Assembly: GCA_022509225.1 (NCBI GenBank)
Contig: JAFLTM010000009.1
Span: forward strand, 1-39,620
Reading direction: 5' to 3'
Origin: Muribaculaceae bacterium
GTDB taxonomy: Bacteria; Bacteroidota; Bacteroidia; Bacteroidales; Muribaculaceae
DNA length: 39,620 nt
The notes under the pieces: generated by a model
The model's input: only the letters and a program-made list of their open reading frames with translations
Database searches by the model: none
Told to the model about the DNA's origin: nothing
Part shown: positions 8,273 through 28,030 of the stretch, in pieces
How positions within the stretch are numbered: the stretch's first letter is position 1
Layout of the letters: each line of letters begins with the position of its first letter
Position numbers and translations under genes: made by a program

Positions 8273-9778
8273 CTATTCTATGACGATATCAAATTTTTCA
8301 AGAAAATCCATAGTCTTCTTGATATAATCTTCCATAACTACATCCTCTTCAACAAAAGGCACTTCTTTCCTATAGGTCTCCATTACCGTTTCTATCAGAT
8401 CAGAGGATTTTAACGGGCGACGGAAATCAATGCCCTGAGCAGCATTCATCAATTCTATGGCAGCTATAATTTTCAGGTTATCAATTATCTTATGCAATTT
8501 GGTTGCCGCATTTGCTCCCATTGAAACAATGTCTTCCTGACCATTTGAACTCACTATAGAATCGCACGATGCCGGCCATGCATACATCTTGTTTTGGCTT
8601 ACTAAAGAAGCTGCGGCATATTGAGGAATCATAAAACCGGAATTTAGTCCGGGTTTGGCTACAAGGAATTCAGGGAGTCCTCTCTTCCCTAATATAAGCT
8701 GTGCCACCCTTCTTTCAGAAATATTTCCAAGTTCATGAAGTGCAACCCCCATATAATCAAAAACCAGAGCTATCGGTTCCCCATGAAAATTACCACCGCT
8801 CACAACCAATTCTTCTTCAGGGAAAACGGTGGGATTGTCGGTGACTGAGTTTATCTCTATATGTAATACTTCAGTGACATGATGCATGGCATCCTTCACA
8901 GCCCCATGAACCTGTGGGATGCATCTAAATGAATATGGATCCTGGACTTGAGTCTTTTCACGTTCGATTATTTCACTTCCTTCAAGAATTTTTCTAAAAA
9001 TCTTACCTGTTTCTATCTGTCCGGGATGAGGACGCACTTGTTGCAGACAATCTAAAAAAGGTTCTATTCTTCCATCGTATGCCTCAAGACTCATAGCTCC
9101 GAATAAATCAAAGCAATTGACAATGTGCCAACCGTCAATCAGGGCTTTGATACCATTTGCCGACATAAATTGGGTTCCATTGAGAAGTGCAAGTCCCTCT
9201 TTAGATTTAAGTTTGATTGGTTCCCATCCAAACATTTCCAATATTTCCGAACCGGACAAAACCTTATTTTCAAAAATAACCTTTCCCTCACCTATTAACG
9301 GAAGAAAAAGATTAGCCAAGGGTGCCAAATCTCCGGAAGCTCCTAAAGACCCTCTGTCATACACTATCGGATAGATTCCGTTATTATAAAAGTCGATGAT
9401 TCGCTGCACCGTAATTATCTGTACTCCACTAAAACCCATTGACAGGGCATGAGCTTTCAATAAAAGCATCAGTTTGACAACAATTGGAGCGACAGGGGTT
9501 CCTACACTGCATGAATGACTTTTAACCAGATTTTCCTGAAGTTCGGTTAATTCTTCACGAGAAATATGTTTGTTACAAAGAGAGCCGAAACCTGTAGTTA
9601 TACCATAGATAGGCTCAGTGTTTTCATCAGTCTTTTTATCAAGGAAATCCCTACATTTTGAAATTCTTGACTTAGCTTCATCAGATAATGAAAGGGTATA
9701 ATCATCCTTTAGAATCTTTTCTATAAGATCATAAGTGAGAAGGCTTGAACCTATCTCATAGTTTTTATCAGGATTCAT
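8273..9778 (-). CDS. hutH: Histidine ammonia-lyase
   Basis: A 501-residue enzyme that deaminates L-histidine to urocanate and ammonia. The catalytic methylidene-imidazolone precursor Ala-Ser-Gly is at 147-149 in GSLGASGDLAP. YGITTGFG near 58-65 supplies the catalytic tyrosine, and the VTDNP, GGNFHGEP and KQ/QDxYSxRCIPQVHG-type segments of the family are present. Length is normal. It is the last gene of the hut run, 3 bases after the cyclodeaminase gene. First enzyme of the pathway encoded last suggests one polycistronic mRNA rather than stepwise control. Confidence 0.97.
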   Translation of the reverse strand: MNPDKNYEIGSSLLTYDLIEKILKDDYTLSLSDEAKSRISKCRDFLDKKTDENTEPIYGITTGFGSLCNKHISREELTELQENLVKSHSCSVGTPVAPIVVKLMLLLKAHALSMGFSGVQIITVQRIIDFYNNGIYPIVYDRGSLGASGDLAPLANLFLPLIGEGKVIFENKVLSGSEILEMFGWEPIKLKSKEGLALLNGTQFMSANGIKALIDGWHIVNCFDLFGAMSLEAYDGRIEPFLDCLQQVRPHPGQIETGKIFRKILEGSEIIEREKTQVQDPYSFRCIPQVHGAVKDAMHHVTEVLHIEINSVTDNPTVFPEEELVVSGGNFHGEPIALVFDYMGVALHELGNISERRVAQLILGKRGLPEFLVAKPGLNSGFMIPQYAAASLVSQNKMYAWPASCDSIVSSNGQEDIVSMGANAATKLHKIIDNLKIIAAIELMNAAQGIDFRRPLKSSDLIETVMETYRKEVPFVEEDVVMEDYIKKTMDFLEKFDIVIE

Positions 9779-27347: not shown

Positions 27348-27713
27348 ATGGGATTCGGAGAAGCAATTAACGTAGGATTAAAAAATTTTTATAATCCTAA
27401 AGGAAGAGCATCCAGAAGTGCTTTCTGGTGGTATTTCCTTTTCATTTTTATTCTCACCGGAGTAATCGGGGTGATTGGAGGTTTCGTTTCCGCTAACGGA
27501 GGTGTTGAACAGACATGGACCGGCATTTTGTTTGATGTGCTTGGAGCGGTTTTGGCAGTCTCCGGAGTTTGTGCTGAAATTCGTAGGCTCCATGATATTA
27601 ATAAATCTGGATGGAATGTCTGTTGGAGTTTAATTCCTGTTGTCGGAGGTCTGTATCTTTTATATCTTCTATGCAAACCCTCATTCCCCAATCCAAACAA
27701 ATACGGTGCGTGA
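27348..27713 (+). CDS. DUF805 family membrane protein
   Basis: A 121-residue inner-membrane protein of the DUF805 (YhaH-like) family. The start is ATG 27348 (MGFGEAINVGLKNFYNPKGRASRSAFWWYFLF); an upstream in-frame start at 27255 would run into the repeat region and add unrelated residues. The family signature RASRSAFWWYFLF is followed by a first span (FIFILTGVIGVIGGF), a second around GILFDVLGAVLAVSGVCAEIRRLHDINKSGW, and a third (LIPVVGGLYLLYLLC). The ending PNPNKYG is typical. The function is not established. It is monocistronic and followed by a strong terminator. Confidence 0.92.
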   Translation: MGFGEAINVGLKNFYNPKGRASRSAFWWYFLFIFILTGVIGVIGGFVSANGGVEQTWTGILFDVLGAVLAVSGVCAEIRRLHDINKSGWNVCWSLIPVVGGLYLLYLLCKPSFPNPNKYGA

Positions 27714-27737: not shown

Positions 27738-27769
27738 GGACATGACCTTTCGGGTTATGTCCTTTTTTT
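27738..27769 (+). terminator. Rho-independent terminator of the DUF805 gene
   Basis: GGACATGACC (27738-27747) pairs with GGTTATGTCC (27753-27762), one G-U pair, around TTTCG, followed by seven T. It lies 24 bases after the stop codon and faces the minus-strand terminator at 27774-27808. Confidence 0.92.
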
Positions 27770-27773
27770 ACAT

Positions 27774-27808
27774 AAAAAAAAGCGGAAAAATGTTTCTCAA
27801 CATTCCGC
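27774..27808 (-). terminator. Rho-independent terminator of the candidate sRNA
   Basis: On the minus strand GCGGAATGTT (27808-27799) pairs with AACA and TTCCGC (27782-27787) with a small T bulge, followed by eight T (27781-27774). The nearest minus-strand CDS upstream ends at 28031, over 220 bases away, so this terminator most likely serves the small RNA. Confidence 0.85.
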
Positions 27809-27867
27809 CGCCCTGTGACTTCTCTTTGTTTTTCACCTTCACAGGCGATACACATTGATCCATCACG
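27774..27867 (-). ncRNA. Candidate small non-coding RNA, about 94 nt
   Basis: This minus-strand unit has every part of a small RNA gene and no open reading frame of note. An exact -7 element TAACTTTG (27874-27881) predicts a start near 27867. The RNA would carry a strong hairpin pairing TCACAGG-CG with CG-CCTGTGA arms (27839-27847 with 27809-27818, one bulge) around a purine-rich 20-base loop. It then has a terminator hairpin (27782-27808) and eight U. The loop is rich in A and G and looks single-stranded, so it could pair with mRNAs or bind a protein. It may correspond to a known Bacteroidales RNA family; I cannot confirm which. The ends are approximate. Confidence 0.7.
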
Positions 27868-27873
27868 TACTTA

Positions 27874-27881
27874 CAAAGTTA
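27874..27881 (-). promoter_or_regulatory. -7 promoter element of the candidate sRNA
   Basis: On the minus strand TAACTTTG is an exact TAnnTTTG match, in an AT-rich block. No distinct -33 TTTG is visible. It sits between the thioredoxin gene stop (28031) and the sRNA body. The remaining bases to 28030 are AT-rich and hold no gene I can support. Confidence 0.6.
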
Positions 27882-28030
27882 TATCTTTATTATATTTTTA
27901 AAATTATAAAATATCGTGTGCTCAGTTAAATTAACCACGCATGGCGGTTTATTTACAAGCAAATATAAGCATTTTCTCTATTAATTCACAAAAAACCTTA
28001 TTATTTATATGTCTTCATACATTCACAGCG

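Follow-up and report, generated by a model that had tools for sequence, protein, structure and literature searches.

The minus strand of the window, which is the whole stretch of 39,620 nucleotides of Muribaculaceae DNA that was analysed, carries the gene for an RNA of about 181 nt that is conserved, usually in a single copy, across most of the genomes sampled from one genus of the Muribaculaceae. The RNA family is new to Rfam. Because the gene appears to stand alone and contains an AU-rich block with long complements at phage translation starts, it is most simply read as a chromosomal, base-pairing, trans-acting small RNA (sRNA) of about 180 nt that would block translation starts, phage late genes among them; we give this reading roughly an even chance. 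The RNA would be transcribed from its own housekeeping-type promoter and would end at an intrinsic terminator. The AU-rich block would lie between a hairpin on its 5' side and a stem-loop domain on its 3' side (helix P1, the GNRA-capped hairpin P2 and the terminator), and by pairing with mRNA leaders immediately before the start codon it would block translation. In some species, one target would be the capsid-type gene of a resident phage.

Table 1. Features of the RNA gene, in positions of the window
Feature	Position	Strand	Remarks
RNA gene	27774..27954	-	5' end approximate, from promoter spacing; 3' end is the last T of the T-run; R1 and R2 match it
Promoter	27960..27995	-	TTTG 27992-27989, 21-base spacer, TATATTTG 27967-27960; Bacteroidota -33/-7 type
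5' hairpin ACCGCCATGCGTGGT	27934..27948	-	Sequence variable; also a hairpin in the window's nearest relatives
Conserved AU-rich block GATATAACTTTGTAAGT	27869..27885	-	Alignment A5; contains the TAnnTTTG box of the earlier note; predicted pairing region
Helix P1, 5' arm GTGAT	27862..27866	-	Folds and covariation alignment
Hairpin P2 GCCT-GTGA-AGGT	27835..27846	-	GNRA-type tetraloop, with T, G, A or C at N in the homologues
Helix P1, 3' arm GTCAC	27815..27819	-	Folds and covariation alignment
Intrinsic terminator GCGGCGGAATGTTGAGAAACATTTTTCCGC, then T8	27774..27811	-	Changes on both sides in 11 of 13 pairs among homologues

An earlier note, made from the sequence alone, had placed a small RNA in a 317-base gap, and both that gap (between open reading frames (ORFs) ending at 27713 (+) and 28031 (-)) and the terminator with its eight T are confirmed. 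Its 3' end agrees with ours, but its 5' end, near 27867, does not, since the promoter would put the start near 27954 and make the RNA about twice as long as first thought. The promoter count began from 50 homologue loci, of which L015 and L053 lack the anchor GTAAGT and L021 and L051 are cut short, leaving 46. A TAnnTTTG box is found upstream, at -200 to -60 from the anchor, in 45 of the 46 (mean 6.4 and maximum 12 in dinucleotide shuffles); 41 have such a box with C after it (shuffle mean 1.3, maximum 5), and 32 have a TTG box at promoter distance in addition. This comparison of homologues supports the assignment of a housekeeping-type promoter. The element that the earlier note took for the promoter (TAACTTTG, 27881-27874, minus strand) is indeed an exact TAnnTTTG, but it lies inside the RNA and is retained in only 11 of the 46 homologues, although the block surrounding it is retained. 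A short RNA of about 94 nt that starts from this box, for which the exact match speaks, is therefore very improbable. The gap had also been described as free of reading frames; a 31-codon ATG frame does begin at 27863 and continues beyond the T-run. It is not conserved: among the five nearest relatives the ATG is absent in four, and in L016 the frame stops after two codons. A conserved small peptide was rejected as well, as judged by eye from MASQK-type frames upstream of the block, which indels throw out of register and which the window does not have.

The 181-nt RNA of the window folds at -45.3 kcal/mol (z -3.48), and its part at 27770-27868 (minus strand) folds at -34.2 kcal/mol (z -4.46). 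The supported fold consists of a GUGAU/GUCAC helix (P1) enclosing a CCU-GNGA-AGG hairpin (P2), plus the terminator. Over the 40 homologues of alignment A5, 94.6% of cells are paired in P1, an inner helix, P2 and the terminator together; both-sided changes occur in 14 of the 26 pairs, and covariation is 0.457, compared with 0.061-0.131 for the slid structure. Most of the covariation comes from the terminator, with double changes at one pair of P2 and one-sided changes only in P1. The earlier note had drawn a helix of 9-10 bp here, and the inverted repeat behind it (CCTGTGA, 27845-27839, and TCACAGG, 27818-27812) is present, but the helix is unsupported: over 40 homologues 79.1% of its cells are paired versus 77.8% in shuffles, with a covariation of 0.074. 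Additionally, any base may stand at N in the P2 loop GNGA, which fits a GNRA loop and breaks the longer helix. The single-sequence minimum free energy (MFE) folds of the window and of G008 contain P1 and P2 in place of that helix, and the MFE fold of G033 uses neither. In many homologues, UGUGA of the P2 loop is able to pair with UCACA of P1, so that an alternative fold is possible.

The 5' hairpin shows an A-U to G-C exchange among the nearest relatives (CCACAC/GTGTGG versus CCGCAC/GTGCGG) and is weak in the window, where the full-length MFE fold pairs 27934-27948 otherwise. Short variants of the RNA in G021, G063, G080 and G124 seem to end within the P2 hairpin. Three short-form relatives (L165, L173 and L174) share a GGGAGGAGCGTGA...GCTCTGCTC...CCCATTTTT stretch upstream of the RNA that resembles a second RNA or a terminator, with no Rfam family at gathering score. 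The conserved part of the RNA is the AU-rich block, with the consensus GAUAUA(1-4 nt)UUGUAAGU(..)GUGRU. It sits upstream of the A/G-rich loop that had been named as a seed for mRNA pairing, and the block takes the place of that loop as the predicted pairing region.

A 251-base DNA query matched four of 61 genomes. Besides the window itself these are G008, where the match covers 117 bases at 83% and extends from the block through the T-run, G033, with a weak match, and G046, by chance. A covariance model, R1, built from an alignment of three sequences, matched 69 of 101 genus genomes at E <= 1 and 58 at E <= 1e-3, mostly with a single strong match each; the window's own genome has one. Some weak extra R1 matches overlap or resemble terminators, and L053 (G030) is probably no member. 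As a DNA pattern, the block is found at 82 places in 65 of 111 genus genomes (13 places for a reversed-pattern control). A longer pattern matched 47 of 397 family genomes, 46 of them in the genus, and the sole match outside it, in G194, does not continue as the RNA described here. A pattern scan of the genome collection returned 50 stretches, two of them from isolates, in records labelled Muribaculaceae, Porphyromonadaceae, Bacteroidales, Bacteroides or Muribaculum, with one Clostridium. Records RIAY01000007 and RIAZ01000018 are among those that contain the block. In a wider search for spread beyond the genus, R2 had matches in 12 of the 149 genomes taken from the family (E <= 0.01) and in 9 of the 149 from the order (E <= 0.1); those outside the genus all score 25-36 bits, the alignments shown are mainly terminator matches, and absence elsewhere in this search is weak evidence because only 20 candidates were scored per genome. 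The loop UUGUGAAA (A5 columns 140-147) occurs on terminators of the genus and on some terminators in other genera, and can draw covariance-model matches alone.

Across 95 loci (two partly redundant sets, with neighbour names read from the sequences and no family call), a peptidase-like gene is common to 72, usually divergent and about 200-660 bases upstream. A nucleotidyltransferase-like gene lies downstream at 56 loci, and ribosomal-protein and EF-G-like genes occur further out at 13-14. The group of G008 has other neighbours, and the RNA of the window lies between genes for a TlpA-type redoxin (PF00578) and a DUF805 protein (PF05656). Since the neighbours differ between loci, the RNA looks like a gene of its own. 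A leader or riboswitch of the downstream gene was rejected: among the homologues that gene may lie on either strand, and in the window it is convergent. No RNA was seen by eye beside the peptidase gene at 15 loci from other families and G000. At the level of sequence, the changing neighbours, the covarying stems, and the promoter and terminator of its own give good support to the earlier proposal of an intergenic, standalone sRNA gene on the minus strand; homologues with covarying stems and differing neighbours, which the proposal said to look for, were found in related genomes.

Second matches to the block pattern in G064 and G016 are inverted and lie directly upstream of an ORF, and G117 provides a third case. 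The G064 ORF comes after the gene for a head maturation protease (phrog_94); the G016 ORF likewise follows a similar protein and has a terminase (phrog_2) nearby. These are candidate prophage regions, on contigs of 87 kb (G064) and 153 kb (G016). The encoded proteins are tentatively called capsid-type here, from their position and a weak fold match: the fold model is poor (pLDDT 50.5), and among the Foldseek matches listed the top rows are mostly phage capsid proteins (best E 3.2e-5 in BFVD; none in the PDB at E <= 0.001). A solved-structure search with the capsid-type proteins gave a best E of 0.045, to unrelated proteins. They have no Pfam family and no phage-collection match, the two genus proteins have no PHROG, and 17 viral relatives have only PHROGs without a stated function. 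The three capsid-type proteins are 37-43% identical to the first, and the leaders of all of them carry the site inverted and at one and the same place, no more than a few bases before the start codon.

A profile search located such proteins at 19 places in 17 of 111 genus genomes, none of them in the window's own genome, and all places except a 45-residue fragment were scored. A complement of the block directly before the start codon occurs at 4 of these 18 loci, at none of 26 in other genera (28 loci were fetched, two of them partial, and further places were listed without loci) and before none of 62 viral relatives (those of 80 with enough flank, with starts unadjusted where the match begins inside the protein). 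Four of 18 is not an unbiased rate, because three of the four positives, whose proteins were found through the block pattern, seeded the profile; G015 is the independent case. Scored against the RNA consensus, the leaders reach 29 (G016), 23 (G064), 20.5 (G015) and 18.5 (G117), and none of 300 mononucleotide shuffles reaches the score of any of the four. The remaining 14 genus leaders score at most 12.5, the 26 from other genera at most 16 and the 62 viral ones at most 13.5.

The leaders were also compared with the actual RNAs of individual genomes. The G117 leader agrees with its own genome's RNA over 24 positions with 1 mismatch, the A4T3 length variant included. In G064, the leader scores 24.5 with its own RNA and 27.5 with that of its sister G008, and carries the AGAGATATAA..GTAAGTAGTGAT variant of its group's RNA. 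Paired with sister RNAs, the G016 leader reaches 32.5 across 59 columns; the RNA of G016 itself (L401, on G016 C9 near 1085; L015) is missing 15 nt of the block, in a genome whose phage region has the longest complement. The G015 leader scores 25.5 with another species' RNA, and no RNA was found in the G015 genome, which is 65% complete. Predicted duplex energies with the genomes' own RNAs are -35.8 kcal/mol for G117, -40.9 for G064 and -34.5 for G016, which reaches -58.7 with a sister RNA; G015 gives -34.6 with the RNA of another species. The fetched loci and the window supply 442 leaders of host genes, among which the best duplex is -28.9 kcal/mol and the median -14.5. The best complement score there is 15 (same-strand control 14), so that no host target is evident among these leaders. 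In the G016 phage region, 5 of 23 leaders score 13 or more, one of them probably before no gene (same-strand control 0 of 23), and weaker block complements are seen before other late genes (L179; ORFs at 8839, 10864 and 15612). In the G064 region, the count is 1 of 30, as in its same-strand control. Pattern scans of IMG/VR gave 0, 15 and 29 stretches, none of which resembles the RNA by eye or score; one chance match there has a score of 23, so a collection as large as this can produce such scores. At L225, L227, L228 and L235, GATATAA(A/G)TTTGTAAGT occurs on the sense strand inside what is apparently one conserved membrane-protein gene, which we take as coincidence.

The RNA may repress the phage, may be titrated by it or may serve it. 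A broad form of the first idea, in which a genus-wide chromosomal RNA would control resident and incoming phages via capsid and late-gene starts and phage leaders would follow the host RNA variant, is possible but on the doubtful side. Several results tell against an sRNA acting on phages: the site is absent at 14 of 18 genus capsid-type loci, the profile search found no such gene in the window's own genome, the G016 RNA lacks part of the block and G015 gave no RNA, the G064 leader fits a sister's RNA better than its own, the G064 region does not exceed its control, P1 has no double changes, and no host target is evident among the 442 leaders. Loss of the site would also be expected in a phage that its host represses, which counts against repression. 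That expectation instead suits an active phage leader: an anti-sRNA site on the capsid mRNA would titrate or destroy a host RNA that in reality acts on mRNAs of the host. The long complementarity, from 24 to 59 columns, and the host group's own RNA variant carried by G117 and G064 are in keeping with such a decoy. However, a few bases upstream of a start codon is a usual place for translational repression, and the weaker sites before other late genes in G016 also sit poorly with a decoy, which we consider improbable.

It may also be that the RNA is structured or protein-binding, either 6S-like or the ligand of an RNA-binding protein, and that the phage matches are recombination relics or a shared DNA element. 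The GNRA-type hairpin, together with a second UUGNGAAA that occurs as the loop of the terminator, would suit a protein ligand, and the 6S model RF00013 recognised no 6S RNA in 31 genus genomes. The G016 match continues into a stretch that is variable and clade-specific, which is what a copied piece would do. However, a relic would hardly keep one place and one inverted orientation before proteins only 37-43% identical. Additionally, the Rfam search that the earlier note had suggested found no family at gathering score in the window, and a search of 12 homologue loci at E <= 5 brought up 5 hits, weak, unrelated and all below gathering, with 0 at 6 further loci. We regard a protein-binding RNA with relic matches as unlikely. 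6S RNA, which is reported with its product RNAs in Bacteroides thetaiotaomicron (PMC7366714), is similar in being structured and of similar length (187 model positions). It was rejected on the RF00013 result of 0 of 31, a model that is itself weak in this order because only 1 of 60 order genomes matched. The RNA here also differs from 6S in its own terminator hairpin and perhaps in the closing stem: the window's MFE fold has a 4-bp 5'-3' helix, and the covarying domain is without one.

The reading that we prefer, a base-pairing sRNA directed at translation starts, resembles known systems. As in trans-acting sRNAs generally, the gene has its own promoter and terminator and lies away from the predicted targets, and its predicted, conserved pairing region has complementary mRNA starts in four genomes, in one of which no RNA was found and in another of which part of the block is deleted. 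To our knowledge, Hfq is generally lacking in Bacteroidota. The FopS sRNAs of B. thetaiotaomicron, described as about 65-70 nt long with 14 copies and mainly SusC-type mRNA targets, are Bacteroidota sRNAs reported to be able to block translation starts; they come from housekeeping promoters, and FopS and GibS bind mRNA translation starts with a conserved 5' pairing region (PMC11697453). The RNA described here shares with them a conserved region matching mRNA translation starts, but is about 181 nt long by its promoter-derived 5' end, has one copy, and finds its complement in capsid-type phage leaders. A review reports that host sRNAs in Vibrio antagonise phage VP882 by targeting phage mRNAs (PMC12197685). 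The likeness is a host-encoded sRNA acting on phage mRNA, here a prediction; unlike that case, where Hfq is at play, the complementarity here is 24 nt or longer. Among the papers listed in literature searches, none describes this RNA or such a capsid-leader site, judged by title and the start of the abstract.

The mouse gut is rich in Muribaculaceae. With a conserved RNA that has a defined pairing block and a concrete candidate target, RNA control in these bacteria becomes open to direct tests. If the phage link is true, a bacterial chromosome would use one small RNA to steer the translation of phage late genes, or phages would exploit that RNA. In the broad form given above, gut bacteria and their phages would be in a truce or an arms race at the level of RNA, one that involves neither Hfq nor CRISPR.

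Other Rfam families were rejected, with none at gathering score in the window or the homologue loci. A tRNA was tried and rejected, as was SRP RNA, for which the sub-threshold RF00169 match lies elsewhere (G000 C1:76505-76602); RF00169 matches 16 of 31 genus genomes, only 1 of them above gathering score. On the plus strand of the window, a strong intrinsic terminator (27738-27762, 11 pairs, T7) stands behind the convergent DUF805 gene and draws sub-threshold Rfam matches to Bacillus and Listeria sRNAs.
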